DNA from: a virus
DNA length: 64,000 bases
Direction: 5' to 3' (one strand)
IMG/VR virus record: IMGVR_UViG_3300042882_001169
Span: 1-64,000 of that record
Shown here: piece after piece, positions 12,760 through 55,600 of the stretch
Layout: every line of letters begins with the position of its first letter
Numbering within the stretch: the stretch's first letter is position 1
The notes under the pieces: generated by a model
What the model saw: the letters and a program-made list of their open reading frames with translations, nothing else
What the model was told of the DNA's origin: nothing
Database searches by the model: none
Position numbers and translations under genes: made by a program

Positions 12760-12767
12760 TTTGCATT

Positions 12768-13871
12768 ATGGCGTTAACTGAATCACAATATAGAACTTTC
12801 GATGACTTATTAGACAGTGTAAGAATTGATTTGTACACGTGGGATCTTGAAGGATTAATTTCACCTCAGCAACTAATTAAAGTTGCTATACGTGTAAATT
12901 ATGACTTAGGTCTACGTATAAATCAATCACGTTCAAAAGCAATTGAAATACATAAAGGAAAAGGAAAACTTCCTCAAGACTTTTATGTAATGAACTTTGG
13001 ATTAGTATGTGAAGAACATTATACTGAAGATATACCTACGTATAATAAAACATATACTGAAGGTATTTTAGAAGGTATTGCTCTTTCAGAAAACTTTTTG
13101 GCAGATAAATTTGTTAATCAGTCTACTACTTTTACTGACATTACGCAAGGTTCAAACATCATTAATCATCAATTACATACACAAAACATAATTGTTCAGG
13201 CGTTTGGTCCTGATGGTGTTGCATTAGATTTTGATATTAATATTATTGATTCTGACAACATTAATATCATATCAACTTCTATGACTACTATAACTAATGT
13301 TAAAGTAATCATTATGGGAGCTAAAATAAGTACAATGGGTACAGGTTCTGGATCTTGTCCAGCATTACTTGATTGTGCAGCTGACGGTACTCCTCATGTG
13401 CACTATGTTACAAACGGTAAAAGAACTGATAGTAGAAGTTTAATTCCATTAAGAATGCACAGGTCTAAATCAGTATCTGCTGATTGCTTTAACTTAAATG
13501 TAAAAGGTAGATATGATGCATATATAAAAAATGGATTTATTCATGTCAATTTTGATGAAGGTGTTATCTATGTTAATTATCAATCTTTAATGGAAGATGA
13601 TGATGGTAACTTATTAATACTGGATCATCCTTACTGTAATGAATATTATGAGTACGCAATTAAACAACGTATTTATGAGAATTTGTTTATGAGTGGTGAA
13701 AATGTTGCCAATCATTTACAATTAATGGAACAAAAACTACGTGGTGCACGTGCTAATGCATTATCATTTGTCAATACTCCTGACTTTAGAGAAATGAAAG
13801 ACTTATGGGAAATGAATAGAAGAGCACAATATCACAATTATTATAACATGTTTAAAAGTTATATGTACTAA
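12768..13871 (+). CDS. Putative neck/tail-adaptor ring protein 2
   Basis: A 367-aa protein. The N-terminal helical part (FDDLLDSVRIDLYTWDLEGLISPQQLIKVA) is followed by a beta insert with a histidine/cysteine cluster. The C-terminal signature is GVIYVNYQSLMEDDDGNLLI, then YCNEYYEYAIKQRIYENL. The 'IYVNYxxxxxDxxGxxLI ... AIkyRIyEnL' pattern is typical of phage tail-adaptor and tail-tube-like proteins of podoviruses. The last 80 residues are a long helix. It ends 3 nt before the nozzle-like giant. Confidence 0.6.
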   Translation: MALTESQYRTFDDLLDSVRIDLYTWDLEGLISPQQLIKVAIRVNYDLGLRINQSRSKAIEIHKGKGKLPQDFYVMNFGLVCEEHYTEDIPTYNKTYTEGILEGIALSENFLADKFVNQSTTFTDITQGSNIINHQLHTQNIIVQAFGPDGVALDFDINIIDSDNINIISTSMTTITNVKVIIMGAKISTMGTGSGSCPALLDCAADGTPHVHYVTNGKRTDSRSLIPLRMHRSKSVSADCFNLNVKGRYDAYIKNGFIHVNFDEGVIYVNYQSLMEDDDGNLLILDHPYCNEYYEYAIKQRIYENLFMSGENVANHLQLMEQKLRGARANALSFVNTPDFREMKDLWEMNRRAQYHNYYNMFKSYMY

Positions 13872-13874
13872 GAC

Positions 13875-36294: not shown

Positions 36295-39200
36295 ATGGCT
36301 GAAAACACAGAATTAGACGCATCAGCATTAACTGCTACTGATGCAAATCAACAACAGGATTTTGCGTCATTAATGTCATCAAATAATCAGGCAACAAATA
36401 ATGTTGAAACTTCTTCTGATGGTCCAGCTGGTGATCCACTTGGAGATGCTATGCGTTATTCTCAGTATGTTGGTAGACAACAGTTGCAAAACAAAATAGA
36501 TCCTCCTACATCTCTTATTGATTCAATGACTTACCAAAAGTCACCTGGTATAAGATACTTGGATGCTGATAGTATAGCAAATTTTACACAACAAGAATCA
36601 TATAATCCAGATGGATTTAATCCAAAGGATCCTACTAACTATGCAAGATTTGCTGCAATGGAAACATGGGGAACAGCTCTTGCAAAAGGATTTGATTCTA
36701 TGTCAAGCAAATTTGGTGCAGCATTCAAAGAAAACTTTGTTGGTTATGGTAGAATGGGTTCTGCTATTGCAAACATGGATATGTCTTTGCTTATGCCTAC
36801 TGAAGATGAAATGATGCAGCAATATTATAAAGATCAAAAGGATGCACAAAAAAACTTTGTATTTCAAAAACCTGAAGATCAAGATAGTATTTTTTCAAAA
36901 GGAAGTGTGTCTGAGTTTATTGGAAGTAGTGGATTTATGCTTGGAACATTTGCAGCACTGTCGTTAGAGATTGCTGCAGATATTTTAATAACAGCGGCTA
37001 CAGCTCCTGGTGGTGGTGAAGGTGCTGCATTATTTGCACCTACCTTTGCAAAAATTGGAGCAGGTTTCGGAAGATTACTTGGTAGAGAAGCTGTTGAAGT
37101 AGGAGCCAGAGAATCTGCAGAAGCACTTGCAAAGAAAACAAATTTCTTTAGAGAAGCAGCACAAGGTTTTACATTAGGTAATAAGTCTGCAGAAGAAATT
37201 AGATTATTGACTAAAATAGATGAAGCGGCTGCTGTATCTAACACAACCGGTAGTATTGCACGAGATGCTATAAATGATACATTTACAGTTTTCAATGGTA
37301 ACTTGCCAGCAATATTAAAATCAAAATCTGTACTTGAAATGACAGGTAATGTCGCAAGAGGATTACCATTAGTTGGTACAGGTATAAGATATGGTGAAAG
37401 AATTAAAGCTGGTGTAGATGCAGGATTATCAACAGGTAAACTTGTTGGTATGGGTGCACAAGGATTAAGACGTGTAGCACAAGAGTTAAATATGTCTGCA
37501 ACAGAAGCATCTTTTGAAGCTGTGTCTTCTTATGGTGATACATTGAATAAACTTATTGACAATCATCGTAATAGTAATAATGGTGAGAATCCAAATGAAA
37601 CGCAGTTTGAAGAAATGCGTAAGTTATCAATGGAATCAAGTGGTGCAAATTATAAAACAAACATGGCAATCTTATTGGCAACTAACAAGTTACAATTTGG
37701 AAACATGTTTAATAAGTTTTTACCTGCCAATAAAACAATGCGAGAATTGATTGAGGCAACTAAAGATAACTTGTTACTTGTAGAAAAAAATGGCTTAAAG
37801 AAATTTTATAAAAAAGGATTTGCTGGAGCGTATGGTCTTACAGGACAAATTGCAACAGACTTTGGTAAAAAAGAAGCAACTTTCCAAGTAGGTAAAGCGT
37901 TCTTTAAAGACATGGCAAGATTTGAACTTGTTGAAGGTTTGCAAGAAAACTTACAAAGCATTTCTTCAAATGGTTGGAAAGATTACTATGTTGGTCAATA
38001 CCAGAAATCTAATTCAATATTAAGCGAATCATTTGGTCAGGCGTTTGAAGATGAACTAAGTAAACAAGGTATAAAAACATTTTTAATGGGAGCATTAACA
38101 GGAACATTAGTTAGACTTCCTGTTCATATGACAACCAAAGGATTAGAAGCTGCATCTAACAAAATTAACGAAAGACAGTACGCAAAAAATCCTGGTGAAA
38201 ATCCTGTTGAAAGAGTTAGAAAACAATTTGACAAAGACATTGAAACTTTAAATACTTTCTTTAAACAAACAGAAGAAAGAACATTTAAACATAAGATTGT
38301 AAATTTTGTCAATCAAACACAAGAAGGACAGAACCAAGCTGAAGCTGCTGCGAAAGGTTTAAGATACGAATTCGAAAACAGTAGAGATAACGCATTAGTT
38401 TCTGCAATTAGTGCCGCAAAACGCACAGAATCGATTGACGTATTACAAAGAGTGGTAAAAGAAATGGGAGTTGATATGTCAAATGAAGATTTTGAAAAAT
38501 CATTTGGTGTAAAACTTGAAGATACTAAATACACAACTCCATTAGAATTTTCAAAAAGTCTTGCAAAAGATATTAAAAAATATTCTGATGTAACTGACAG
38601 TATAAGAAACAAGGTTAAGACTTTTACTGAACCAACTTTATACACTCAAGGTAGTAAAGAATATTTTACTGCAATGATTGCTCGTTCTGCAGAAGAAGAT
38701 GCTGTTCATACAATTGCTATGAATGCAGTTAAAGGAGACATGACTGCAAAACGTGCACAACAAATCGCACAAGAATTATTAAGTAATCAGAGTATTGCAA
38801 ACAGTTCTGATTATGTTATCCGAGTTCTGACAGATCCTAAGATTCTTAATGATGAAAAGGGAAACATAATGTCTGAATTAAGAATTTATAGAAACAATCT
38901 TAAAGAGAATACAGACGAGAGTTTGAAACCTAAGATTGAAAAACAAATTAAAGACAAGGAAGAAGAACTTGCAAACTTAGAAAAATGGCAATCATTTTTC
39001 AGTAATAGAGTTGATGCAAGTATTTCATTAAATGAACAAGGTGAAATAGTACCGGTAGAAAATATAGTATTAGATACTTTTGTTGGTAAACGTATTGACA
39101 AAAAACAAACATTACTTGACGGATACGGAGAACCTTTAGACACAATTGAAACAACATTTGATACAAATGATGATGAGGTCATTGAAGTATTTAGACAATT

Positions 39201-41121
39201 ATTAAATGTTAAAAATCGACAAGCTGGAGTAGATACACAAATTTCTGAAACAGAAATGCGCGATGTTCACAGCAAGTTAGTAGATTACATGAAACTTGAC
39301 AAGGATACAAAAGACTACATGAATGCTGTTGATACTCTTATGAATCCTAAAAACTTTAAACATGCTATTAGTAAAATGACTGATGGTAAAATGAAGTTTA
39401 ATGTAATATCATTTTTAGACAGATATAATGTTACAATTATACAACATGTTTATGGTAAAGGAGGATTGCTTGACAGTTTAGAAGAAGTTAATAGTTCATT
39501 TAATGAATCAGATAAACTTGCAATTGGTTTTGAGATCATGGAGATGATGTATCAAGATGAGAATTATAAAAACTTATTAACGGTTGCTCTTGATCCAAAT
39601 CTTGGTATACAAAATGGTGAGTATGTAGACAAATTACTTGGTTCTCTTAAAGACAATGTTACAGCAAAATTTGCAGACATAGTTAAAAAGTATGCACCAA
39701 GTGAATATACTCAAGACATTACTGACGAAGACTATGATCAAATGATTGCTACTGGTAAAATTGAACCTATTAAAGAACAATTACTTGTAGACAAAATTGC
39801 TCGTGGTGAAATTGCGCTTGGAGAAAATGAACAAAAACTTGTAAACTCAGAACAGTTTAAAGAGTCTATTGATGCTCAAGTTGCAATAGCAAAACAAAAA
39901 ATATCTGAAGAAAAAACAGGTACAAAAACATTTAAGGATCCTGATGGTAAATGGGGTGTAGCAACAACTAATGATGAGATTATTACTGAAGGTTATGATA
40001 CTGAAGCAGAAGCTATTGCAGCATCTGAAGCAATGACAAATACTTCTGAAACTCCTGTTAGTGAAATACCTGAGACAACTCCGGGTCAACAGTACATGGA
40101 CATGTCTGTAGTTGAGTTACAAGATAATCTTAATAGCATTAATGAGGCGTATGATGAATTAAGTATTCAAGGTACACAACAAGAAATAGATGATTTATTA
40201 CAAGAAAGAAATTATGTACTTGCTGCATTAAATAAAAAATTAAAAGAAACTCCAGCATCAAATGCTCCTGAACCAGAAATACCTGAAGCAGCTGTTACTA
40301 CTACACAAGGAATTCCTGATGAAATATCTCAGCCAATAGAATTGCCTGTAACACCTGTTGCGACTGTTGCTCCTGTAACTCCTGCACCGGCTCCTACTCC
40401 TAATGTTACGCAATTAACTGAAAGTAATGAAGAAGGTTTTGTAAGTGCTGCAGAAGTTAATTTCTTAAGTTCATTACTTGGAGAAACTCCAGTTGAATCT
40501 GCAGCAGAACCTTTTACGGTTACAACAAATGATGCTCAAACATACGATGTTAAAGACACAAGTAACAATGTACTACAAACTGTTGATACTGAAACAAAAG
40601 CTGATGAGATTGCAACTTCTGCAAACAACACAAGAAAAGACATTGATTTTGTAAAGAAATTTATGGATGAAGTATTGACAAACATTGAAGACAAAATGGA
40701 TACTGTAAAGTATACCAGCATGCAATCGCGTGGTGAGAAAGCAATGAAGTTGTACAATAAGAAAAACGGTACTGAGTTTAAAACATTAGAAGAATACGCT
40801 GCTACAAAAGAAGGTAGAAAAAGTCTTGAAGGCATTAGAGAATCTGTTATAACAGGTAAAAGAATTAAATACACTTCAAAAAAAGTTACTGTTGCTAAAC
40901 CTACTGAAGAAGTTCAAACAAGTTTATTTGACACAGTTGAAACACCTAACGTGTTGTCTACTGGTCGTAATATTTTAGAAAGTTTGAACAATGAACTTGC
41001 AGATTTTAAATCAATTGTACAAGAAAATTCAAAAGAAATTAGTAAATTTGTAAGTGAGGAACCTATTTCTGAATCCTCAATACTTGAACAATTAAAGAAA
41101 GCAGCAGAGTGCTTTAAGTAA
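36295..41121 (+). CDS. Large putative ejected cargo protein with membrane-like segments
   Basis: A 1608-aa protein. The N-terminus is acidic and low-complexity. Residues 203-262 are hydrophobic (SSGFMLGTFAALSLEIAADI then Ala/Gly-rich), and could cross or line a membrane during DNA entry. The middle 900 residues are helical. Residues about 1210-1250 (GKWGVATTNDEII ... EAEAIAASEAM) and 1408-1448 (YDVKDTSNNVLQTVDTETKA) look like two copies of a small 'xWxV...G...T..EA' beta-beta-alpha module. Between them is a Pro/Thr linker. The end SILEQLKKAAECF resembles the end of the following giant (EIIEKLKCL), perhaps a shared sorting tag. No enzyme motif found. Confidence 0.55.
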   Translation: MAENTELDASALTATDANQQQDFASLMSSNNQATNNVETSSDGPAGDPLGDAMRYSQYVGRQQLQNKIDPPTSLIDSMTYQKSPGIRYLDADSIANFTQQESYNPDGFNPKDPTNYARFAAMETWGTALAKGFDSMSSKFGAAFKENFVGYGRMGSAIANMDMSLLMPTEDEMMQQYYKDQKDAQKNFVFQKPEDQDSIFSKGSVSEFIGSSGFMLGTFAALSLEIAADILITAATAPGGGEGAALFAPTFAKIGAGFGRLLGREAVEVGARESAEALAKKTNFFREAAQGFTLGNKSAEEIRLLTKIDEAAAVSNTTGSIARDAINDTFTVFNGNLPAILKSKSVLEMTGNVARGLPLVGTGIRYGERIKAGVDAGLSTGKLVGMGAQGLRRVAQELNMSATEASFEAVSSYGDTLNKLIDNHRNSNNGENPNETQFEEMRKLSMESSGANYKTNMAILLATNKLQFGNMFNKFLPANKTMRELIEATKDNLLLVEKNGLKKFYKKGFAGAYGLTGQIATDFGKKEATFQVGKAFFKDMARFELVEGLQENLQSISSNGWKDYYVGQYQKSNSILSESFGQAFEDELSKQGIKTFLMGALTGTLVRLPVHMTTKGLEAASNKINERQYAKNPGENPVERVRKQFDKDIETLNTFFKQTEERTFKHKIVNFVNQTQEGQNQAEAAAKGLRYEFENSRDNALVSAISAAKRTESIDVLQRVVKEMGVDMSNEDFEKSFGVKLEDTKYTTPLEFSKSLAKDIKKYSDVTDSIRNKVKTFTEPTLYTQGSKEYFTAMIARSAEEDAVHTIAMNAVKGDMTAKRAQQIAQELLSNQSIANSSDYVIRVLTDPKILNDEKGNIMSELRIYRNNLKENTDESLKPKIEKQIKDKEEELANLEKWQSFFSNRVDASISLNEQGEIVPVENIVLDTFVGKRIDKKQTLLDGYGEPLDTIETTFDTNDDEVIEVFRQLLNVKNRQAGVDTQISETEMRDVHSKLVDYMKLDKDTKDYMNAVDTLMNPKNFKHAISKMTDGKMKFNVISFLDRYNVTIIQHVYGKGGLLDSLEEVNSSFNESDKLAIGFEIMEMMYQDENYKNLLTVALDPNLGIQNGEYVDKLLGSLKDNVTAKFADIVKKYAPSEYTQDITDEDYDQMIATGKIEPIKEQLLVDKIARGEIALGENEQKLVNSEQFKESIDAQVAIAKQKISEEKTGTKTFKDPDGKWGVATTNDEIITEGYDTEAEAIAASEAMTNTSETPVSEIPETTPGQQYMDMSVVELQDNLNSINEAYDELSIQGTQQEIDDLLQERNYVLAALNKKLKETPASNAPEPEIPEAAVTTTQGIPDEISQPIELPVTPVATVAPVTPAPAPTPNVTQLTESNEEGFVSAAEVNFLSSLLGETPVESAAEPFTVTTNDAQTYDVKDTSNNVLQTVDTETKADEIATSANNTRKDIDFVKKFMDEVLTNIEDKMDTVKYTSMQSRGEKAMKLYNKKNGTEFKTLEEYAATKEGRKSLEGIRESVITGKRIKYTSKKVTVAKPTEEVQTSLFDTVETPNVLSTGRNILESLNNELADFKSIVQENSKEISKFVSEEPISESSILEQLKKAAECFK

Positions 41122-41140: not shown

Positions 41141-44100
41141 ATGAAACAGTGTGAAATAACAACTGGTCAATATGTATCAATTGTAAAGAACCTTATTAAA
41201 TTAAATCCTGAGATATATAGAAACTTTGATAAAACAGCGGAGTTTATTTTAAAGAGTGGTCTCTCAAACAATGAGAAATCACTTTCTTTATTTTCAATAT
41301 CAGAGATATACATTGGTTTAAATGATCTTGATAAATCATTTTATCAAGTTGGTAATGCTGTAAAAATTGCAGAAGCAAAAGTGTTACTTTCTGAACCGGA
41401 TGCGTTTCTATCAGCTGTAAGCAATCTTTACACTATTAAAAAAGCACCTTCATTAAAAGCAGAAGTTATTGAAAAAAAGATAGAGGCACTTTCTAAAAAG
41501 AATACAATCACCGGTAATGATTTAACAGGATCAAATGGTGTGCTTACTGCCATAAAAAATTATTTTAACACTCATGAGTTTGCAAGTCTTGAAGAAAGAG
41601 CTGAAGTATTAAAAAGTATAACTTCAGAATTAAAAGATGTTATTCGTGAATTAAATACTACTGATTCTCAGAAAGAATTTTTATTAGCAAGAATTGATTC
41701 TGTTATAGAATCATTAGATAAAAAATCTGATTTCATATCATTGCGTGATATTGCATCTCTTGCAGAATTAAACAATGTACTTGTTACTTTGAAAAATGGT
41801 CAAATGCTTGAGGCAATAGCTAAACCAGAAGGTTTGTTTATTATGACAGAAGATGGTAACGAATTTCAACTTGATGAAATTGATATACTTTCTACAAAAA
41901 ATGCACGTAACGATGATTACTCTAATAGTAACACTGGTAAACAAGAATTTTTTGAAGACACTATTACATCTAATTTTAAGATCCAACCTGTAGAAAATAC
42001 TGTTTATCTTAAAGATAAAATTGAAGATAAGCTTAAAAAAATGGACAACCCAGAAGCTGGTGTACGGATAATTGCTGTACAATTAAGTACTGTTGGTGAT
42101 GAACGTCTAAAGAGAATACAGGGACTTGCTGCAAATCCACAATACAAAGGTCTTGGTAATAGAACATATGAAACATTTGAGAATGAGACTCAAATTAATT
42201 ATTTAAAATCTACTTCTAAAGGAACAGTTATTACTGTTGCAAGACCACAGAAAGCAGATAGTAAATTTGCGTTGATGGGTGAAATAATTGGAACCGGTGA
42301 AAAATTTTACTTGTATCCACTTGACAACTATGTTTTCTTAAATAGTGATAACACTACAGAAAAAATAGACTTTTCAAATCCTGTGCATCTTGCAAAAGTT
42401 AAAGAATTATCTATTAAAAGATTATCAGATAAAAGTCAAGATGAATTAACTGAAGATGATTTACTTACAATAAAAAATGCTCATGAAGTATATAAAACAT
42501 TTAAAGAGCAATTAACAAACAGTATTGAAGATCAATTCTCAGATGATGTAACTTCTATAGATGTTACTAAAGAATTTTTTTCACAATATAACATTGGCAC
42601 ACAAACTTTTGGTAAAGAGACAAGACAAAACTTATCTGAAGTAATTGAGTCTGAACCTAATCTTTCTCGCAAGTTGACAATTGGAACAATTGATAATGCT
42701 GGTAATATAATCAAAGAAGAAGAGCGCAATGTTGTATTTGCATTTAGCAAAATCAAAGACAAGTTTGATAAAAAAACTGGAAAATTTCCTGATAAAGATA
42801 AATTAAACAAGTTTACTTTAATCAATACTTTAGGTGCTAATGAGCGTATTATTATAAAAGATGAAAACGGTGGAGTTATTGATAAAGTTACACAAGATGC
42901 ATATTTGACTTCTTATTTCGATCCTAATATAAAACTTACTGATGAGTATATTAAAAACAATATACTTAAAAATCAATATGTTGAAACAACTACAAACATA
43001 ATTATTCGTTTTAACAACAACCGTACATATGGTTTTAGAGTTGTACGACCTGTATATGTATTATCACAAGAAGAAGGGTTTGCTACATTTATGACAACTT
43101 TGGCTGATGTATTAAATTCTCCAAATAAAAAAGCTCTGTTGCAAGATTTTAATAGAAATGTTTACGCTTTTAAAAAGTTTGCATCTAAAAATGATAACTT
43201 GGAATTATATGTAAATTTTGCAAGTGACGCTGAAGGATTTTTACAAGTTGAAGTCAGACCTGTAAGTAGTACAGGCAAATACGGTTTCATGGGAGATAAA
43301 GAACTTAAATCAGATTTTAATTTTTCTTTTAGACCAATGTTTGCAGCAGATGGTACAACTATTTTATCACCTGAAAAAGACATAAAAACTTTAGCAGCTG
43401 CTTTAAGAGGAGGTCCGTTAGTTACAAAAGTAATTAATGAAAACATTATATTTTCAGAATTGGATCTTACAAAACAAAAAGATCTTGCAAAATTCTATTC
43501 ATTAGTAAATCAATTATCTAAAGAAGAAAATCCATCTGAAAATATAGTTGCTCTTGTAGACGAAATTAAAAAACAACAACAAAAGTTTTCTGAAATAATT
43601 ATTGAAAGAGTAATTGATAAGCTATTAGTAGTTGGTAAAAAATATGAAGGGTTTACTGAAAACTTTATGAATGATTTTCCAGATCCTAAACATTTAGTTG
43701 TAGATGTTAATGAAGAAGGAGCATACATTCCGCGTATTGAATTTGCAAATAATAATAAAACACAAGCAAGACAAAACTACGATAAAAGCCTAAGTAGTTT
43801 AGATATTAAAACTATACCTGTAAAAAAACTTGTTATTACTTCTAAATCTCCATCTGCAACTAACATGCCTGTTGCAAACGTAGAACCATTAGAAGTTACA
43901 AATCATCCGATTGAAAATATACCAGTAAGTCAACCATTACCATCTGCAGAATACGCAGAAGGAACTACTACAGAACAAATTGACGTAAACGATGATATTC
44001 CAGAAATTGATGTGTTTTCTATTTCTGACACTGAGGTGCAAACTGAAACAGAAGCAGAAAGACAAAACTCTGTTCAGTGGTTGCAAGAAAATTTACCACA

Positions 44101-47100
44101 GTTTGGTATATCAACAGAAGATATTGCAAGCATTGTTGATTTAGCAGCAATTGATGGAACTGTACTTGGTATGTTTAAAGATAGAGTTATCTATTTGAAT
44201 AATTCTATATTGTCAAAAGGTGTAGTATACCATGAGGCATTTCATGGTGTGTTTAGATATCTAATGTCTCCAGAACAAAGAGCAAAACTTATTGATGCAG
44301 TATCATCAAACAAAAAATACAAAAAAGCATTTACACCTGCAGCATTGAAAAAATTTGCAAGTGAAAGAAACTATGTATATGATTATGAGAAAATGTTTCA
44401 GTTAAAAGCTGAAGAAATTCTTGCAGATGGTTTCCAAAACTACATGAATAAAAATACAAAACCTCAAGGTCTTGTAGCACAGCTATTCGAAATGCTTAAA
44501 AGACTAATTGATATGTTTACTCAAAGAGGTAAACTTGTTGATAGTACATACAAAGACATTCAAAGAGGTTACTATAGTAGCAAGCAAATTCAGTCAAATT
44601 TATATGATGGTCAAGTTGCTTATGAAGTAATTGATGGTTTAAAAGTAATTGTAAAAGATAAAACATCTGCAACTGGAGTTAGTCAACAAGCAATGCCATT
44701 AAGTGCATCTGATCAAAGTCAGTTAGTAAACATGGTGACAAAATATGTTATTGAAAACACATCAGCACAAACATTTGAAGAAAAGTTTAAAACAGCACAA
44801 AGATTAATTCTTGATAAAGTATACAACCTTGATAGATTAATTGAAAAAAATCCAAATACAGAACAGTATCCAAACAGAGTACAAGAACTTATTAAAACAA
44901 AAGGTAATCTTATTTCACAATATCGATTTATGTTAGGAGCCAGAGCAACTGGAGAAACAATTTATGATTTAAACAACTCTGGTAATGCTGCATATGACAA
45001 AAGAATATTACCAAATAAAATACTGCAGTATGAATCCGATCCGTTAAACAACGATCTTGGACAAGTATCTCTTGAAAAATTAAAAAAACTTGTTAAGAAA
45101 AAATCACAAGAGTTATATTCTATATTAGACGGAACTGGTGAAACTCTTGATAAAGGACTTTTATTAAAAGAACTTGCTGGAGAAAATGAGAAAAAATCTC
45201 AAGTAGATCAAGACTACGAAGATGGTCAAGAAATATCTGATGACGTAAACATCGATGAAGGATTTGGTGAACACAACAGACTTGATTCAGCGCCAAGACA
45301 AATCAGAAGATTTCTTGCTATTATCAATTATGAAAAAGAAGAAGATTTAGGTATAACTTTTCCACGTGTAATTGATGGAGAAAGTATTTATGGTACTTTA
45401 TTAAAAATCACATCTGATGTATCTGTAGACAACATTATTAATCAGATACAAGTTACTGCTGATGTTTACAGAGAAGATGGTAAATTTAACGATGCTGCAG
45501 ATTTACAAGCTGTATATAATCAGTTAAAAGATTATACCGGGATGGATGAAAATGGTAATCCATCTTCTAACAGACAATTATATAACATGTTTGTTGACGT
45601 ACTTCACGGTACTGAAACAGAATATTTTATGATGATTGCCAGATTAAAAACAGGAGTATTTGAAGAAGAAGGTAATAATATTGAAAACTATACATTAGGA
45701 GATACTATTGTAAAAATGGATTCAAAAAATAAAAGAAGTAATATGATTGCTTCAATGATTACCACTCATGCTAAAAAAAGAAATGATCCTGAATACTTAG
45801 CATCTGTAAACAGATTGATTGAATTATCAAACACAATTATTAATAAAAAGATAATTCTTGGTAGTGCTGCAAAAGCAAATAATGATTTAGAAACTCTTAC
45901 TTTTGATTTATACAATGCCTTCAAAGGTGTCGGTATTGAATTACCAAAATCATTAATAAGAATGTCAATTTTAGCAATTGATAAAATAGACAATAATAAT
46001 AATGGATTATCTCAAATAGATAAAAAAACACTTTTACATTATGATGCTAATGCTTCTCTTATTGCTGATAAAGCGTTTTTACAAAAAGATTTGTTCTATG
46101 ACATAAGAGCAATATACAATACTGTTAAAAATGATTCTATTACTTCAAATGCATTTGGTAAAATGCTTGACGAAAACAATGATAACTTCAAGCGTTTTTT
46201 TAGTATTGCTTACAAATTTCAAAAATATATATTAAAATATGACGCTACTGATAGACCAAGTGTTGTAAGAAATGCTGCTGGTAAACCAGTATATCGTTAT
46301 ACAAAATACACACCGCTGATTTCAACTGCTCAAGCTTTTAGAAGAACAGGTTTAGAAAACACATTAAGAAAAGATCCTTATTATAATGATTTCTTAAAAG
46401 ATTTTTATAAAGATAATCCATTGTTTGCAGACTTGCTTGCCGGTAAAGACACAGCTGATGCAAAAAAAGCACAGCTTTTAATGGACAACATGAGAGTGTC
46501 TTTATTTGGAGGAGTGGCTCAGTTTAATAATCAGACATACAAAGATGGTAAAACATTTGGTAAACTTGATAAACAATCATTCCATGTAATGAGTATTTTA
46601 TCATTTTTGCAAAGAACAACTGTATCATCCACTGAAACAAAATTAGATGAAGATGGGAACCCAGAAGATGTTAGTACATCATTCCAGACATTCTTGCGTA
46701 CTTTTGACACACTTGAGGCATCTCAGACAAACTTTTTAATTACTTCTATCTACAAACCTTATGCAGATAAAACAGGTCTTTTAAAAGAAGGAAAACATTT
46801 AAAAATTGTTGCAGATCTTGAAGGCAAAGTAAAACAAGAATTTAACAGAATTAAAAAAGAATGGAACAGTAGAGTTGATAACAAATCAAACTTTGATTCT
46901 GGTAAATCAAATAGAATAATTAACAAGTACAATGGTGTATTAAGTAAAGAAAATGTGACAGAAGCAGACACTGAATCTGAAAACTTAAGAGCATATAACT
47001 TTAATTACTTACCATACTTTTTTGCAGCTCCTGAAAATGATACTTTAACACAAACATTAATAGGTTTAGCAAAAGATAAAAATATAAATTTTGAAGACAT

Positions 47101-50100
47101 TGATGAAAGTACTTTAGCAGATTTACGTGAAGGACTAAACAACTATGCTTTACAAGAATTAAACACGTATATAAATACATTAAAAAATTTAGGTGTTGTA
47201 AAAGAAAATGAAGAAACAGTAAAAGCTCTTAAAAAAGATCCAGCAACTGGAAAAACTATTACTGATGTTGAAGGAAATCCTATTGTGTTTGAAACAAAAC
47301 AGCCACCCCTTAGATATTTAACTTCAAGTTTAATTGCAGACAAATTAAAAATTGACAGTAGACCTGATCAAAGTACTACTACAGTATATGCTGGTACAAA
47401 ACCAAATTATGATGTAAGAGCTGAATTACAATCTCGCAGTGACTTGAACGGATTACTTGCTGATTATTTCTTTAATCAATGGTATAACTCGTTAATGGTT
47501 AATGAATTATTCTTAGGTGATAAGGCAATGAATGTTAAAGACGGTATTGATTCTACAAAACGTAATAAAAAATTACTTGCGTCTGGTAGTACAATGAAAG
47601 CAGGTAAACATACTGTTACTTATCTTAATACTATTGAAGGATACATAAATGATAAATATCCAGAATATGGACCATTTTATAATCCTCAAGAAGTATTAAA
47701 TGATATTCAAATTACTGATGATGCTGTGCGTGATTACATTTATAGAAACTTTAAACTTAATCAAAAAGTATTTGATGGTCAAAGTATTTCTACATTGTTT
47801 CATCAAGCAGATATGCATGATGCTTTAGGAAGACTTACTCCTGAAATATTAAGTTCTCTTATTGCAAAACAATATCGCGAACTAACTGAAGAAGAAGTTC
47901 GAAACATGGAGAAAAACAAAGTAGTAAATAATCCTAAGAAAACTGTTACTGCTTCTCGTAATGTATATCATAAACAATCAGAAGCGTATATTGATAGAAA
48001 TGACGTGAGTAGATTGATTGTGCCGGAAGGTAAAACTCGTGATCAAGTGTATGACGATTTACATTCTAAATACATGTACATATATAGTTTACGTAATCAA
48101 ATACAAGAGTCACACAAAATTAATGATACAGGAGAATTTGATACTACTATTGAAGATTTAGAAAAAAGTATTCAAGACACATATGTAAAAATTCATGCAT
48201 ATTATGTGCCACTTCCTAATAGAGTAAAACTTCACAAGATTTTAAACTCTATGGAGTATCACAATATAGATCAGTTAATGGATACTGAAGCATCTAAAAA
48301 TGCTACAAAACTTCCTGTTGATTTCTTTGGACATGAAGCTGAAGAATATCTTCCATTAAATTTGTCATCATTAAGAGTAAACAATGAAGATAAATATCTT
48401 CAGGTTGAAACTTCTGGCGTACACGACACAGCACGTTTTTCTGTACAAGGTAAAATATTATTACCTGCAGATTTAAAATACATTGAACAACTTGCAGAAA
48501 AGCGTCACGCTGAAGACGGAACGGTAATGTCTTCTTCTGAAAGAAAAGCAATGAACCAATTAGGTGATGTTCTTCTTAAATATCAAGAGTCACTTTATGA
48601 TATTGCTGATTCTAATCTGCAGTCATTAAAACACTTTATGCGTAAAGGTGAAGACTTTGATTTAGGAAAAGTATTTGATTTGATTAGAGAAAATCTTGAA
48701 ACACAGAATGCACCGGCATCAGTATTAAAACTATTTGATGTAGATGCTTCTGGTAAACCTGTTCATAGTCCTAACCTTCCAGGTATTAGATCTATGTTAG
48801 AATACTATTTCTTTTCGCTTTACAGTAAACATGTAACTGATGAAAAAGGTTCTGGATTTAAAAATATTCACGTTTCTTCATTTGGACTTGACGTATTAGA
48901 AAATGAAGATGGAGAAGTTGTTACAACTGAAGATTACAAAAACAATCCAGAAAGATATCCTAATGTAAAAAGTAGACCATTAGGTGTACGTATTGAAGCT
49001 AAATATGATTCTAATGGAGAATTAATTAGTAAAAAATACTTTGTTGAATGTATTTTACCAAAGCAGTTTTTTAGAAGTCAGCAGCAAGAAGATTTCTTTA
49101 TGGAAAATCTTAGAGAAATGTTTGCTCTTCGTATTCCAACTGAAGATAAGCGTTCAATGATTGTACTTAAAGTAGTAGACTACGTGGATAGTTCTAACAT
49201 GAACACTATTGTCGTACCACAATTTATACACTTACTTGCAGGATCTGACTTTGACGTTGACTCGTTATATGGTCAAACATATGCGCATTATATAAATGCG
49301 GCAGGTGATTATGCAAAATATGGTAATTATGATGTTTACAAATCTCCTGCACAAGGTAAATTTATAGAGTACATTCATTACATGGCTAATGATGAAAACT
49401 TTAAAAAATTAATCAAAGCAAAAAGAAAAGAAATTTTAGAATCTAAAGAGCTTGTTATAACTGCAAATGCACTTGAGGTAATGTACGGAATGGGTTATAC
49501 TCAGGAAGATTATATCAAAGCGTTAACTGCAGGTGTAATTGATGATCTTGAAAGTTACGAATCAGATTTAGAAGAAGATATTGTAGACATTAAATCAGAA
49601 AAAGAAGTAAGTAGACAAGCATTTGTTCAAGCAAAACGTGATACTGAAAATGATTCTAATGACTATGTTGCAAAAGCAAATCGTAGAAAATTTGGTAAAG
49701 AACATTTTGATTTGAAAAATGAACTTGACGAAACATATCAGGAACGTAATAAAGTACGTGCAGAAAAACGAAGATTGTTAACACTTGTAGATGGAGCTGT
49801 AAGAATTGAAGCAGCATTACAAGTTTTTGAAAAATATGGTTTACCAGTTGATCAAGCAAACTTTGATAGTAACATTGTGAATCATTTGTCTGTATTACCT
49901 ATACACCAAAATAATAACTTGGATGCAAAGATTAATATTCTTTCTAATGAGGCAGTGTTTAAAAACTTGTACATACACGCTAAATCTTCTACAGAATACT
50001 TCGAAAGTATTGTAGAAGGCTACGGTAGGGATCTTGAAAATTTTGGACCTAAGTCTGATCCAAATACTATTACATCTATTATTGAGTCTAAATATTTAGG

Positions 50101-52672
50101 TTCTGCTTATAAAGATATGATTGGTATTGCAGCGTCATTACAAAAATTCTTAGCACTTGCAAGTCAATATGAATTAGAACTAAATTCTAACAATGTTGTT
50201 TGGAAATTTTTTAGCAACGATTTGCAAGCAGATGGTACTACTAAAATAACTGAAAACAATCTTTTTAAATTTGGTGCAATAAACAAAAATGGTCAGCGTG
50301 TAATTGAACTTAATGGTATTGTATTAGGTATTGCTGCAGACGGTATGAAAAAACCTATTCCTGCTGCATTAGAAATGAATGAAATAAATACTGGTGTTAC
50401 TCTTGCGATGATTGGAATCGGATTAGATCCTGCATTTGCATTTGGATTTAACTTTATTCCTGAAATAAGAAATGCTATAAATGAAGTTCAAGCATCTCGT
50501 TTTGCAATTAGTGAATCAATTTCGACAGAGTATTTGTTTTTAAATGACAGGATTGGAAAACAAATTGAAAAATTTGTAAAAACCAATGGTGATAGAAAAT
50601 TGTTAAATGAACTAATTGATGCAGGTCTAATTGCACCAGATTCATATGCTGTTAATGTTAAAATTAACAAAGACAACTTAATGATTGATTTTAAACAAAC
50701 TCCACTTGATGAATACAGATTAGAGAACAATGTTCTTACTACTGAAGACATTGGATATGAAGTATCAGCTTATGTTGGAGGTGTTAAAACAGCACTATCA
50801 AATGAAGCACAAAAATTGATTTTGTTACAATTATACAAAGAACAATCACAACAAGCATGGAAGATACGAAATGCAGGTGCAATAGTTGATTTGTATAAAA
50901 AACTTAATCCGACTTTTGTATCTTTTGACAAATTGTATAAAAACATTAATCAGTTACGTGATGGTGAATCTATATTTACAGTAGAATCCAGCGATAAATT
51001 ATTTAATGGAAAACAAGTGTGGGTTCCACTTACTGAATCAATGGATGATTTAAAAGAGCAATCTTCTAAAATATTCTTAGAAAGAACGTCTTTCTTCCAA
51101 CCAATTAAAAACTTGTTTGATACTGTGTTTACAGATCCATCTAACATTGCCAAAATTATGACAAGTTTTGTTGCTTTGCGTAAATATCAACTAAGTCTTC
51201 CTGGAAGCAGAAAAAGTACTAACGCCTCGATGCAAGCAAACTTTGACGCAGATGACAGAAACTTGATTGAAACATTTACTGCAGATTACTGGTTTAAAAA
51301 TTCTTTAGATAAAGAACTTGATGCAATGAAGGATCTGTATCCTGATAATAAGTTCTTACAATACTTAAAAGTATCCAACAATACAGCAACAGTATTTACT
51401 ACAACCAATCAACCTGTTCAAGAAAAGACTTTGGAAATGGTAAATAAAGCAAAAATTGCTGGTGAATTAGCTGATAGTATTTCGAATGATGCGTATGTAT
51501 TGTATAAAAAAGAAAACTTGTTTATGAAAAAACTATTTTATCATGAACTTGCAAGAACAGGGTTGCAATATAAATCTGGATCTTTTTTACAATATCTACC
51601 TGCTGAATTACAGATACCATTGTCTAAAAACATAGAAGACTTTATTAAAGCAATTGAGAGTACTCAAGGTAATAAAAAAGAATTAATTGATGCAATTAAA
51701 TCATTTATTGGCGATGAGTCAACAACTACTCAAGAACAAGTGTACAAGTTATTTGATGATTTGTTTGTTTTAATGGCGCATGGTGCATCAAAAGAAGTTA
51801 GTAATAAGAAAATCAAAGGTGTTAAAAATATTTCATACAATGAGTCTGCAGATTATGCATCTAAATTTATGAAAAACATTAATTTCCAAACAACAGATGC
51901 AAAAGAAAGAATTGACATTGCAAATAAAATTGTTGGAAATATTTTAGGATTAGTTGTTACTGCAGATAAAAAAGGATTTTTACTTACTGATAGACTTACT
52001 TCTGGTAAACTTGAAGAAATTGTTATTAACATGAAAGGTGCTGATAGCATTCCTGAAGCAACTTCTCAAGCAGTAATGGCTGTAGGTGAAAAGTTAAACA
52101 TCTTCAAAGATAAAGATGATAAAAATAAGTTTAAGTTTCCAGTTATGTTAAAACTTGGATCCACTACTTATTTGTTACAAGGTGTTGATGAAGAAATAGG
52201 TAATAAGAGTTTTGGTAAATCTATTATCAATTCTATTGCAGGTGTAGGTGAATATAGAACTACAGGTAACGCTGCAAAATATGTTGCATTACCAATGGAA
52301 CTTACAACTAATACACTTAGTCCAATTGGATTTAGTATTGAACAATCTAAACGATACATGAGTCTTATAAATAAAAAAGCAAAAGTTGACATGTCAGAAT
52401 TTGATCTTGCAGAAGCAATGTCTGAAGGTTTAACTGCAGACATGTTTGAAGACTATTCTATTAAACCGGAAACATCTGCACCACTTACTCAATTAGAACT
52501 TGATATTCAAAATATTAATGTTACCTTTGATGTAGTAAAGCACTTCTACGAGCAAAGCGGTAAACGTCAATCTTTAGAAGCGTATTCTAAAACTTTTGCA
52601 GACATGGCTGTACAGTTAAAATCTACAGGATTATCTAACCAAGAAATTATTGAAAAACTTAAATGTTTATAA
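41141..52672 (+). CDS. Giant virion RNA polymerase-like protein with zincin domain
   Basis: A 3843-aa protein. The key motif is D2703-F-D2705-V-D2707 in HLLAGSDFDVDSLYG, preceded by ALRIPTEDKRSM (about 2663) and KGSGFKNIHVSSFGLD (about 2568). This order matches the double-psi beta-barrel polymerase of crAss-like phages, in which a DxDxD motif binds the catalytic magnesium and the enzyme is packaged and injected to transcribe early genes. Upstream, H1031-E-A-F-H1035 (GVVYHEAFHGVF) with a distal KAEEILADGFQ helix is a zincin domain. The protein is far longer than the roughly 2200-aa polymerase of Cellulophaga phage phi14:2. The remaining helical regions may be tail-cargo sequence. The polymerase call rests on motif recognition. 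Confidence 0.7.
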   Translation: MKQCEITTGQYVSIVKNLIKLNPEIYRNFDKTAEFILKSGLSNNEKSLSLFSISEIYIGLNDLDKSFYQVGNAVKIAEAKVLLSEPDAFLSAVSNLYTIKKAPSLKAEVIEKKIEALSKKNTITGNDLTGSNGVLTAIKNYFNTHEFASLEERAEVLKSITSELKDVIRELNTTDSQKEFLLARIDSVIESLDKKSDFISLRDIASLAELNNVLVTLKNGQMLEAIAKPEGLFIMTEDGNEFQLDEIDILSTKNARNDDYSNSNTGKQEFFEDTITSNFKIQPVENTVYLKDKIEDKLKKMDNPEAGVRIIAVQLSTVGDERLKRIQGLAANPQYKGLGNRTYETFENETQINYLKSTSKGTVITVARPQKADSKFALMGEIIGTGEKFYLYPLDNYVFLNSDNTTEKIDFSNPVHLAKVKELSIKRLSDKSQDELTEDDLLTIKNAHEVYKTFKEQLTNSIEDQFSDDVTSIDVTKEFFSQYNIGTQTFGKETRQNLSEVIESEPNLSRKLTIGTIDNAGNIIKEEERNVVFAFSKIKDKFDKKTGKFPDKDKLNKFTLINTLGANERIIIKDENGGVIDKVTQDAYLTSYFDPNIKLTDEYIKNNILKNQYVETTTNIIIRFNNNRTYGFRVVRPVYVLSQEEGFATFMTTLADVLNSPNKKALLQDFNRNVYAFKKFASKNDNLELYVNFASDAEGFLQVEVRPVSSTGKYGFMGDKELKSDFNFSFRPMFAADGTTILSPEKDIKTLAAALRGGPLVTKVINENIIFSELDLTKQKDLAKFYSLVNQLSKEENPSENIVALVDEIKKQQQKFSEIIIERVIDKLLVVGKKYEGFTENFMNDFPDPKHLVVDVNEEGAYIPRIEFANNNKTQARQNYDKSLSSLDIKTIPVKKLVITSKSPSATNMPVANVEPLEVTNHPIENIPVSQPLPSAEYAEGTTTEQIDVNDDIPEIDVFSISDTEVQTETEAERQNSVQWLQENLPQFGISTEDIASIVDLAAIDGTVLGMFKDRVIYLNNSILSKGVVYHEAFHGVFRYLMSPEQRAKLIDAVSSNKKYKKAFTPAALKKFASERNYVYDYEKMFQLKAEEILADGFQNYMNKNTKPQGLVAQLFEMLKRLIDMFTQRGKLVDSTYKDIQRGYYSSKQIQSNLYDGQVAYEVIDGLKVIVKDKTSATGVSQQAMPLSASDQSQLVNMVTKYVIENTSAQTFEEKFKTAQRLILDKVYNLDRLIEKNPNTEQYPNRVQELIKTKGNLISQYRFMLGARATGETIYDLNNSGNAAYDKRILPNKILQYESDPLNNDLGQVSLEKLKKLVKKKSQELYSILDGTGETLDKGLLLKELAGENEKKSQVDQDYEDGQEISDDVNIDEGFGEHNRLDSAPRQIRRFLAIINYEKEEDLGITFPRVIDGESIYGTLLKITSDVSVDNIINQIQVTADVYREDGKFNDAADLQAVYNQLKDYTGMDENGNPSSNRQLYNMFVDVLHGTETEYFMMIARLKTGVFEEEGNNIENYTLGDTIVKMDSKNKRSNMIASMITTHAKKRNDPEYLASVNRLIELSNTIINKKIILGSAAKANNDLETLTFDLYNAFKGVGIELPKSLIRMSILAIDKIDNNNNGLSQIDKKTLLHYDANASLIADKAFLQKDLFYDIRAIYNTVKNDSITSNAFGKMLDENNDNFKRFFSIAYKFQKYILKYDATDRPSVVRNAAGKPVYRYTKYTPLISTAQAFRRTGLENTLRKDPYYNDFLKDFYKDNPLFADLLAGKDTADAKKAQLLMDNMRVSLFGGVAQFNNQTYKDGKTFGKLDKQSFHVMSILSFLQRTTVSSTETKLDEDGNPEDVSTSFQTFLRTFDTLEASQTNFLITSIYKPYADKTGLLKEGKHLKIVADLEGKVKQEFNRIKKEWNSRVDNKSNFDSGKSNRIINKYNGVLSKENVTEADTESENLRAYNFNYLPYFFAAPENDTLTQTLIGLAKDKNINFEDIDESTLADLREGLNNYALQELNTYINTLKNLGVVKENEETVKALKKDPATGKTITDVEGNPIVFETKQPPLRYLTSSLIADKLKIDSRPDQSTTTVYAGTKPNYDVRAELQSRSDLNGLLADYFFNQWYNSLMVNELFLGDKAMNVKDGIDSTKRNKKLLASGSTMKAGKHTVTYLNTIEGYINDKYPEYGPFYNPQEVLNDIQITDDAVRDYIYRNFKLNQKVFDGQSISTLFHQADMHDALGRLTPEILSSLIAKQYRELTEEEVRNMEKNKVVNNPKKTVTASRNVYHKQSEAYIDRNDVSRLIVPEGKTRDQVYDDLHSKYMYIYSLRNQIQESHKINDTGEFDTTIEDLEKSIQDTYVKIHAYYVPLPNRVKLHKILNSMEYHNIDQLMDTEASKNATKLPVDFFGHEAEEYLPLNLSSLRVNNEDKYLQVETSGVHDTARFSVQGKILLPADLKYIEQLAEKRHAEDGTVMSSSERKAMNQLGDVLLKYQESLYDIADSNLQSLKHFMRKGEDFDLGKVFDLIRENLETQNAPASVLKLFDVDASGKPVHSPNLPGIRSMLEYYFFSLYSKHVTDEKGSGFKNIHVSSFGLDVLENEDGEVVTTEDYKNNPERYPNVKSRPLGVRIEAKYDSNGELISKKYFVECILPKQFFRSQQQEDFFMENLREMFALRIPTEDKRSMIVLKVVDYVDSSNMNTIVVPQFIHLLAGSDFDVDSLYGQTYAHYINAAGDYAKYGNYDVYKSPAQGKFIEYIHYMANDENFKKLIKAKRKEILESKELVITANALEVMYGMGYTQEDYIKALTAGVIDDLESYESDLEEDIVDIKSEKEVSRQAFVQAKRDTENDSNDYVAKANRRKFGKEHFDLKNELDETYQERNKVRAEKRRLLTLVDGAVRIEAALQVFEKYGLPVDQANFDSNIVNHLSVLPIHQNNNLDAKINILSNEAVFKNLYIHAKSSTEYFESIVEGYGRDLENFGPKSDPNTITSIIESKYLGSAYKDMIGIAASLQKFLALASQYELELNSNNVVWKFFSNDLQADGTTKITENNLFKFGAINKNGQRVIELNGIVLGIAADGMKKPIPAALEMNEINTGVTLAMIGIGLDPAFAFGFNFIPEIRNAINEVQASRFAISESISTEYLFLNDRIGKQIEKFVKTNGDRKLLNELIDAGLIAPDSYAVNVKINKDNLMIDFKQTPLDEYRLENNVLTTEDIGYEVSAYVGGVKTALSNEAQKLILLQLYKEQSQQAWKIRNAGAIVDLYKKLNPTFVSFDKLYKNINQLRDGESIFTVESSDKLFNGKQVWVPLTESMDDLKEQSSKIFLERTSFFQPIKNLFDTVFTDPSNIAKIMTSFVALRKYQLSLPGSRKSTNASMQANFDADDRNLIETFTADYWFKNSLDKELDAMKDLYPDNKFLQYLKVSNNTATVFTTTNQPVQEKTLEMVNKAKIAGELADSISNDAYVLYKKENLFMKKLFYHELARTGLQYKSGSFLQYLPAELQIPLSKNIEDFIKAIESTQGNKKELIDAIKSFIGDESTTTQEQVYKLFDDLFVLMAHGASKEVSNKKIKGVKNISYNESADYASKFMKNINFQTTDAKERIDIANKIVGNILGLVVTADKKGFLLTDRLTSGKLEEIVINMKGADSIPEATSQAVMAVGEKLNIFKDKDDKNKFKFPVMLKLGSTTYLLQGVDEEIGNKSFGKSIINSIAGVGEYRTTGNAAKYVALPMELTTNTLSPIGFSIEQSKRYMSLINKKAKVDMSEFDLAEAMSEGLTADMFEDYSIKPETSAPLTQLELDIQNINVTFDVVKHFYEQSGKRQSLEAYSKTFADMAVQLKSTGLSNQEIIEKLKCL

Positions 52673-52675
52673 GAC

Positions 52676-55600
52676 ATGACAAATTGTATTAACATAAATG
52701 ATCCATTGTTTAAAGAACTTGTTGCAGCATTTGGAGGCAATGAGGCATTAGCAAGAACCGCTGTTGCATTAAATAAAGATATTATTCCTTCTGTTGATGA
52801 AGCAAAAAGTTTAATTGCAGGTATGAAAGTGGAAGAAAATGATGAACGACATGTTCGTCACTCTGATGAATTCAAATTAGAAAGAACTAAAGATCAAGCA
52901 GTTACACTTACAAATCTTAGTTTATTTGCAAACAATGCTCAAAGAGAAGCAATTTCAAAACTGTTACAAAACAATAGAGAGTATCAAGAATTTCTTGAAA
53001 AAAACATTGAGCTAAGAAAAGATGGTAGAAACACTTTACCTTCTTACTCTGTTACTTCATTTATTGGATCTTCAGATTTTGCAGGAGATCCTGCTAAGTA
53101 TGAAGCATTCAAACTGTTTGGTACATTTATGCACGACGTGTTAGAAAAAGCACAGATTGAAGCGTTAAAAACAAACAAGGTTATTGACCAAGTCTTGACT
53201 CCAGAATTTTTTGACAAGGTGTATGAAAAGTATTTAGAAAAGAATCCATTTTACATAGAAGAACTTACAAAAGAAAAAATATTTGACATGGCAGATCGTG
53301 TTGCAAAACATGTCGCTGTTAACAAAGATGAAGGATATCTTATCTTACCAGAGATTACTCTTGCTGGTAAAGATATTGCAGGTAACTATATTGTTGGTCG
53401 TCTGGATTTACTTTTGATTAGCAATACCGGTAAAGTAAAAGTGTTTGACTTTAAGACAAAAAAGGTTCATAACATGGTTACTACTGGTCCGTTTGGTGTT
53501 GAAATTGACAAAGACAGAGCATTTGTCAATCTTGCCACAACTTCATATCAGGTTAATGACAAACCAGGTATGGCTGATAAATTAAAACAAGCAAACTTAC
53601 TTAGAACAGCATACGACAACTGGACACTGCAATTAAAAGCATATGAAAATATGCTTGGTCAAATTGGTCTTGTTACTGAAGAAAGTAAGATTGTTGCTTT
53701 ACTATATCAAACAGATGCAAACAATAAATTCTTAGGTGATGCATTACATATATTTCAAGGTAATAACTACTTTGATTATGCAACATACGCTCAAACAATC
53801 AATGAGTATGGTGATTGGATAAAAGATCCACTACGAACTGCACAAAGATTAAAAGAATATCGTGATGCAATAGATGCAGAAATCCCTGTTGGTAACAAAG
53901 CTATTGAGGATGAACTTGAAAAGAACTTTCAAACATTAGAGTTTACTCCAACTGAAGCAGAAAACAAAAGAGTAATGAAAGCATTAAAAGAGGCATATAA
54001 ACAACAGAGTGAAGAAATCTTTGATAGAATAAATGAATTAGACGCTCAAGGTAAAAACTCGACTCCATTGCGTGAACTACTTGCAGTTAGAAGAGCCACC
54101 TTAGCAACATTTAATACTTATACTGAAAAGGTAGATGCAACAGATGCTGCATATGAAATTAACTTTTTTAATATTCTTGCTGCTACAGAAGACGATCTTA
54201 AAAAGTTATCTGATTTGTCAAAAGAAGCAATCAAGTCTTTTAGAACTGGAACACTTGATTTTTTTAGTTCAGATACAACACAAATTCATCAAGCATTTAT
54301 ACGTTCAAAAGGACTAAACGATATTATTGAAACTCTTGAGTCTATTGTAAACAAAGCTGCAGAAGATCCTAATAATAATATTTCTCCAAGCAGTCCTGTA
54401 ATGCAAAAATTAAATCAATTACGTCAACATAACATGACAATTGAAGCAAATTTTAGAGAAGCATTTTTACTAAACGGTGTTAAAATATTAATGACACCTG
54501 GTGAAGCAGTGTTTTCTTCTATTAATGCTCAAACACGTCAGGCACTTGAACCAAAGATTGCTAAATTAGAAAAAGAAATTGAAGACATGAAAGCTGGTAA
54601 AGCAGCAAATCTTTTTAAACAACTGCAAGGAAGTTTAATATCTTTAGTATCTGTTGAGTTTAGAAAAAAAGTTGCTAATAGTTCTCCTGATGCTAAAGAT
54701 ATTTTGGACAATGTACAACGTAAAGAACTTGAGTTATTACGTTTACGCGCATACGTTACTACAGGAGTTGAATATGATATTGAGGCGTTAAAAAAATACA
54801 TCAATGCTGTTACAGATCCAAACTCTCAAGTTTATATTGGAGCACAAGATACTTTTAATAGTACATCATTGTTTTCCGGATTGTTATTAGATAAAGGTAT
54901 CGCTTCTGCATCTAATAGTGATCTTGCAATATCAGCAATGACTCAAATGTATAAAAATGGACAAGCAAAAGCTGTATACAATATGCAAAATGATTTTGCA
55001 ATAATGCAGTTTGACAGAGACAGAGATAATTTATTAAAACGATTTACTGTTGAACAATTAAATGATGAAATGTCTGAATGGAGAGAATACAAAGTATTTA
55101 ATAAGGATAAAGGTGAGTATGAAACTGCAAGAAGTTTAAATTTTGTAAAACCATATAGTCAAGAATACGAAAACACATTCAAAGAATACAACTCAAAACT
55201 AAAAGAATTTAATCAAGAAATTCGAAACTTGACAAGTGAAGTTAATTCTAAACAGAATGGTACTCAAGAATATGAAGATGCTAAAACAGCATTGTTTGAA
55301 AAAAAGAAAGAAAAAGAAAATTTTAATACTGAAAGAATTAAATGGTTAATTGATAATACATCATTACCATTTAATGAATCATTCTACAAATTACAAGCAT
55401 TAATGCCTGAAGAAATCAGAAATGAACTTCAGGAAAAATATTTTGAGATACAGCAAATAACATTTCAGGTAGGTGAAGGAAACGAAGTGTTACTTGAGGA
55501 TTATGACTTTGATAGATTGAAAGAACTTGAAGATGACATCAGAGTTCTGAGAGAAAAGGCAAAGAAGATGAATCCTGATTATGCTGCGTACATGGAAGAG

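Follow-up and report, generated by a model that had tools for sequence, protein, structure and literature searches.

The proteins of the RNA polymerase (RNAP) block of crAss-like phages carry cysteines at their ends in a pattern that is beyond doubt, and we read this pattern as the mark of a linked cargo: with a probability of about 0.6, a 3843-amino-acid (aa) crAss-like RNAP with a zincin domain is the middle link of a disulfide-joined chain of proteins of 1608, 3843 and 1961 aa, in that order. All three are encoded in the window studied here, the first 64,000 nucleotides of the IMG/VR record IMGVR_UViG_3300042882_001169. The 3843-aa protein is in itself of a known kind, correctly recognised in the first-pass annotation of the window, and its motif variation is ordinary; its interest lies in the terminal cysteines that it has in common with the neighbouring proteins.

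A crAss-like RNA polymerase in a single reading frame

The gene (41141–52672, +, as are all features of this protein given below) is one intact ORF of 3843 aa with 0 internal stops, comprising an N-terminal part, a zincin and a catalytic RNA polymerase. The source record is a 70,963-base viral fragment, relatives of which extend to 97–136 kb, and the single-ORF state is kept in all full-length relatives. The motifs are where the first-pass annotation had placed them or where its numbering leads: the aspartates of GSDFDVDSLYG are D2703, D2705 and D2707 (catalytic DFDVD, residues 2703–2707, 49247–49261), KGSGFKNIHVSS occupies residues 2569–2580, and RIPTEDKRSM (residues 2664–2673, 49130–49159), invariant in the clade, has the counterparts RIPTEGKQS and RVPTEDKYS in alignments with known crAss RNAPs. 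All three aspartates, RIPTEDKRSM and the zincin residues H1031/E1032/H1035 and E1091/E1092 are invariant in 21 full-length relatives, so that neither GSDFDVDSLYG nor the zincin motif is a chance occurrence.

The identification as a crAss-like virion RNA polymerase held up by both structure and sequence. In a Foldseek search with an AlphaFold model of the polymerase core (residues 2130–3130, 47528–50530; pLDDT 79.9, pTM 0.75), the virion RNA polymerase of phi14:2 (PDB 6VR4) was the top match and the sole PDB match below 0.001 (E 7.9e-18, probability 1.00); cellular and P23-45-type polymerases occupied the following ranks, and the viral matches were crAss RNAPs. This comparison with 6VR4, which had been proposed as a check on the polymerase fold, supports in the model a double-psi-barrel polymerase around residue 2705, with a two-barrel single-chain fold like that of 6VR4, the barrels not being traced strand by strand. 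The C-terminal half gave in tblastn only crAss-like RNAPs among the matches listed (E to 5e-15). A family alignment reached in hhalign 97.9% with phi14:2 gp66, 98.3% with crAss001 gp50, 99.1% with p-crAss gp44 and 99.7% with cr11_1, percentages that come from single-target comparisons in which controls (unrelated block proteins) stayed near zero, and the DxDxD motifs were in register in the alignments with crAss RNAPs. Searches of Pfam, PHROGs and PDB sequences gave no meaningful match for the whole protein, profile searches of PDB sequences with A6 and A7 were likewise negative, and a proteome-wide hhalign comparison of the window genes with those of crAss001 and phi14:2 produced weak matches beyond the RNAP block.

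Two traits had been singled out in the first-pass annotation, the V in place of I in DFDVD and a chain longer than the phi14:2 enzyme. Both are real, but neither sets the protein apart. DFDVD is also present in p-crAssphage (gp44), crAss001 (gp50) and cr11_1, while phi14:2 and others have DFDID and cr111_1 has DLDVD; within the window clade itself, DFDID is seen in L005 and DLDVD or DLDID in deeper members. As for size, crAss-like RNAPs as long as ~6000 aa have been published (PMC10136315). A tree of the catalytic core places the window and its environmental relatives in one clade (support 100/100), separate from Steigviridae, Suoliviridae, Intestiviridae and Crevaviridae, its deeper placement being uncertain given the long branches. 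A phi14:2-type major capsid protein was found in 13/13 longer relatives tested; the record of the window itself, a fragment of 71 kb, lacks it. As phi14:2 and crAss001 suggest by analogy, the 3843-aa protein would travel inside the capsid, be ejected together with the DNA and then transcribe the early genes. Elsewhere in the window, a ribonucleotide reductase ORF (62401–63951, −) matched its family profile from position 131 onward only, so that the N-terminal portion may be lacking or encoded elsewhere.

The zincin domain and its fusion to the polymerase

The zincin reported in the first-pass annotation is located at residues 966–1170 (44036–44650), after a variable linker (residues 901–955, 43841–44005), which within this half of the ORF is the least conserved stretch and rich in insertions. 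Its zinc motif HEAFH (residues 1031–1035, 44231–44245), with H1031, E1032, F1034 and H1035 invariant in 21 relatives, is followed by the equally invariant E1091-E1092 in AEEILADGF (44411–44416), the probable third zinc ligand. Both the HExxH and the EExxAD/E-F motif that follows it are invariant across the clade and can be made out in other crAss zincins, where the latter reads EENMAEGF, EELLAEDF and EEFLVES. The homologue of the domain in crAss001 is the C-terminus of gp47 (hhalign 98.9%), and its tblastn matches were exclusively crAss genes of the RNAP block annotated as 'RNA-polymerase subunit' (E 2e-9). Against the closest relative, L001, the zincin had the lowest dN/dS of any segment (0.058; whole ORF 0.12). 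An AlphaFold model of the isolated domain was poor (pLDDT 57) and matched no known fold. By its sequence, the domain is a putative HExxH zincin metallopeptidase that accompanies the crAss RNAP block.

Zincin and polymerase share one ORF throughout the window clade, as they do in cr118_1, cr53_1, cr109_1, cr6_1 and cr4_1 (Suoliviridae) and in cr108_1 (Steigviridae); we considered and rejected the idea that this fusion is new to crAss phages, since cr118_1 has both in one ORF. The annotation of p-crAss gp45 already describes an RNAP-associated protein fused to a zincin protease. By the matching of the DxDxD motifs, the part resembling crAss001 gp50 begins near residue 1220, right after the end of the zincin near residue 1170, so the 3843-aa protein is, in essence, a gp47-like C-terminal part joined to a gp50-like polymerase. 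Its neighbours are the upstream 1608-aa protein (36295–41121, +), with a weak match to residues 324–636 of crAss001 gp47 (40%), and the downstream 1961-aa RNAP-associated protein (52676–58561, +), which hhalign relates to phi14:2 gp65 (94%). A second type of HExxH domain occurs near the N-terminus of phi14:2 gp65 (residue 245) and of the second subunits of cr53_1 and cr4_1, and is absent from the 1961-aa protein; in Flavobacterium phage Fpv3, gp32 has an HExxH at residue 4065, near the protein end.

Cysteines at the ends of the RNAP-block proteins

Cys4 (41150–41152) and Cys3842 (52664–52666, the second-last residue) were among the invariant residues in the first full-length conservation map, and a census revealed that the RNAP-block proteins are almost cysteine-free apart from their ends. 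The 3843-aa protein has cysteines at 4, 2637 and 3842, the upstream protein has Cys1606 only (41110–41112), and the downstream one begins with an N-terminal Cys4 (52685–52687). The same is seen in phi14:2, where gp67 (1797 aa) has a cysteine only as its last residue, gp66 (2180 aa) only at positions 3 and −2, and gp65 (1421 aa) only at 3, and in crAss001, with a single cysteine at −3 in gp47 (2341 aa) and at 5 in gp49 (1349 aa). The rule follows gene order: all proteins but the last end with a cysteine (in the final nine residues), and all but the first start M-x(1-3)-Cys. Across 21 crAss-like chains (Steigviridae, Intestiviridae, Suoliviridae, Crevaviridae, Dulem virus 41, Flavobacterium phage Fpv3 and the window), 27/27 junctions had cysteines on both sides, with an N-terminal cysteine in 0/21 first proteins and a C-terminal one in 0/21 last proteins. 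Five of these chains use ORFs with recoded stop codons and one a post-intron piece; protein starts are mechanical first-ATG calls, and for crAss002_33 the annotated start precedes the MSC start taken in the analysis by 33 residues.

Within the window clade, the four junction ends carried a cysteine, in order, in 26/26, 27/27, 30/30 and 24/24 proteins; for the 3843-aa protein and its counterparts it was at residue 3 or 4 (27/27 members) and within the last two residues (30/30). No first protein had one at its N-terminus (0/18), and the 3 of 23 immediately downstream proteins that end in cysteine are all extra links, placed before another protein with a cysteine start. Among background ORFs of the same genomes, 2.6% had a cysteine at residues 2–6, 7.7% in the last nine, and 0% both. 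In 34 block proteins the terminal density was 104 times the internal one (40/476 vs 71/87,615 residues, uncorrected for kinship, so that a binomial p-value for the enrichment is overstated by phylogenetic dependence), and 15 of the 34 had cysteines at the termini only.

The domain string is cut at different places in different lineages, and each cut comes with a cysteine pair, whereas no cysteine was present at the fused sites examined. The window clade and Suoliviridae have the zincin part and the polymerase in one protein, whereas Steigviridae, Intestiviridae and Crevaviridae have them split, with a cysteine pair; the polymerase is joined to the second subunit in Intestiviridae, and elsewhere these two are split with a pair. 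A further cut is seen in eight relatives (L033, L038, L040, L075, L076, L080, L081 and L102), in which the last ~60 residues of the 3843-aa protein form the end of a separate protein of 149–1214 aa (E 1e-11 to 1e-16). In these split relatives the main protein gains a terminal cysteine (e.g. ...TDENNC), the small extra protein has exactly two, at 3–5 and −2, and the next protein starts M-x-x-C; the window, fused at this point, has none there. Judging by these sequences, gene fusion and a terminal cysteine pair behave as alternatives.

The pattern also had predictive value. The second protein of L102 has a cysteine at −2, which called for a further protein with a cysteine start, and this was present (MSEKC), giving a chain of four links. 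Genomes fetched after the pattern had been formulated (seven more crassvirus genomes, cr4_1 and the cultured Flavobacterium phage Fpv3) fitted it, except for Dulem virus 42, which is heavily recoded and was left unscored. A natural control is provided by cr108_1 (L105, NC_055878), in which a group I intron (14375–14693, Rfam E 1.1e-20) within the catalytic DxDxD codons splits the polymerase gene into two annotated genes (GSD | YDID): the ORF ends made by the intron are without cysteine, while the real ends of the protein carry it. Opposite strands encode the zincin protein and the polymerase in crAss001 and cr128_1, and the cysteine pair is still present, which excludes an mRNA-level explanation and argues for a cause at the protein level.

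Some observations lie beside this pattern. L102 (RZYO01000024.1) is a contig with a crAss-like RNAP block that was binned in a Spirochaetia MAG; it probably comes from a phage, and its assignment to this host is doubtful. One case runs counter to the pattern: in p-crAssphage (L014), gp47 (857 aa) has a lone cysteine at its second-last residue that lacks a partner in a simple chain and may pair with another cargo protein. The unrelated virion RNA polymerase of N4 (L111), gp50 (3500 aa, 12524–23026, −), and its neighbour gp51 have zero cysteines, which may mean that threaded proteins avoid cysteine in general, the terminal ones being an exception specific to crAss phages. A putative tail protein in the window (13875–20576, 2233 aa) has 55 cysteines, as against the nearly cysteine-free cargo proteins. 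The literature searched, which did not include the phi14:2 structure paper (PMC12127119), held no mention of the terminal cysteines.

Proposed linkage, alternatives and known systems

Terminal cysteines of such strict polarity are most simply read as head-to-tail disulfides, in which the C-terminal cysteine of one protein would bond the cysteine at residues 3–5 of the next. As phages assemble under the reducing conditions of the cytoplasm, the bonds would have to form at a late stage, presumably once the virion meets oxidising surroundings. The linked cargo could then pass the narrow tail as a single thread with its order and stoichiometry fixed, and the host cytoplasm would reduce the bonds and release free subunits. 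The wider proposal, that crAss-like phages join their giant ejected transcription proteins in this way into one covalent, gene-ordered thread, with fusion and disulfide interchangeable and cytoplasmic reduction freeing the subunits, appears to us somewhat favoured; much the same confidence applies to a linkage at the protein junctions, whether covalent or otherwise paired, and rather less to its threading role.

Work on crAss001 virions gives this proposal a setting: gp47, gp49 and gp50 are held in the capsid, the tail constrictions measure <50 angstroms and force cargo proteins to unfold in order to pass, and inter-subunit disulfides are known in the tail and portal vertex (PMC10172136). How hundreds of kDa of folded polymerase pass in an ordered and correctly numbered way through a podovirus-type tail of <50 angstroms is a question raised in the same study (PMC10172136), to which a cysteine code at every junction suggests a simple and testable answer. 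The test could perhaps be made on existing mass-spectrometry data from reduced and non-reduced crAss001 virions, where the peptide pairs expected from the sequence are CNS of gp47 with CITTNSTIEELAAK of gp50, and ICGANTLYEL of gp50 with CAIIPQVR of gp49. If true, the linkage would explain why crAss RNAP genes split and fuse so freely. The code also offers a sequence rule with which the cargo chain and its order can be found in uncharacterised genomes.

Two roles come into question for the zincin. It might free the polymerase from the N-terminal part, in the virion or after injection, making the protein a self-processed polyprotein, as the first-pass annotation had suggested for the time after injection. 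Its catalytic residues are indeed invariant, and in the comparison with the closest relative purifying selection was strongest on it; it lies immediately ahead of the polymerase part, between less conserved stretches, and the two parts are separate proteins in Steigviridae and Intestiviridae. Yet crAss001 gp47, which is not fused, has its zincin at the same C-terminal place; the role of the domain is thus older than the fusion, and it is unlikely to have arisen to separate the fused parts. The conservation map of the relatives shows no conspicuous short conserved site at the junction, and the split lineages re-mark the junction with a cysteine pair where bare ends might be expected, which suggests that linkage and not separation has been selected. 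We therefore regard self-processing as improbable. A much stronger candidate, which we place only a little short of even odds, is that the zincin acts elsewhere, on the host envelope or host proteins at entry or on other virion proteins, and that fusion or linkage serves co-delivery only. HExxH and the glutamate are conserved in a virion-cargo protein, the second HExxH domains of phi14:2 gp65 and cr53/cr4 would fit, and the ejected tape-measure protein of P23-45 also joins a virion RNAP to a metallopeptidase (PMC10770324); nothing in the analysis, however, identified a candidate substrate.

The cysteines themselves could be short sorting or packaging tags, or metal ligands, instead of disulfide partners. 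The evidence being that of sequence, and similar C-terminal endings (CL, CFK, CFS) recurring within the clade, this deserves some weight, but a tag has no need of strict polarity (0/21 and 0/21), the endings of different families share the cysteine and no further motif, a single cysteine per end makes a poor metal site, and the small extra links carry one at both ends; we consider it unlikely. Far less credible still is that they are a by-product of gene splitting (intein remnants, translational coupling) or of cysteine depletion plus chance. Some crAss groups commonly have introns and inteins (PMC7886860), and cysteine is generally rare in these proteins, down to zero in the 3500 residues of N4 gp50. 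Against this, the pair is carried by the opposite-strand genes of crAss001 and cr128_1, is missing from intron-made ends, leaves no space for an intein sequence and recurs at several unrelated cut sites, and both translation coupling and intein remnants were rejected as its source.

The 3843-aa protein and the proposed chain can be set against several known systems. The closest in structure is phi14:2 gp66 (PDB 6VR4), which shares the core fold, the catalytic block, the giant single chain of virion type, a gp65-like protein following it and terminal cysteines at residue 3 and −2, but has 2180 aa, DFDID, no zincin in the same chain and ~13% structural identity. The parts are also matched in crAss001, with a C-terminal zincin in gp47 (HEAFH), the polymerase gp50 (DFDVD), the associated protein gp49 and cysteines at both junctions; there they are three separate genes on two strands, whereas in the window zincin and polymerase are one ORF and the cut has moved upstream. 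p-crAssphage likewise has a zincin at the end of gp45, the polymerase gp44 next, DFDVD and a cysteine pair at the gp45/gp44 junction, but its zincin is separate and very divergent (hhalign 5.6%), and the second subunit is fused to the polymerase. In cr118_1, cr4_1, cr109_1 and cr6_1 (Suoliviridae) and cr108_1 (Steigviridae), zincin and polymerase are one gene followed by a separate associated protein, as in the window, although the N-terminal protein is fused too (4.3–4.9 kaa) and they belong to another clade in the RNAP tree. Outside the crAss-like phages, gp96 of Thermus phage P23-45 is also a giant ejected protein that unites a virion RNAP with a metallopeptidase (PMC10770324); it is the tape-measure protein of a phage with a long tail, has membrane domains and shows no close sequence kinship.
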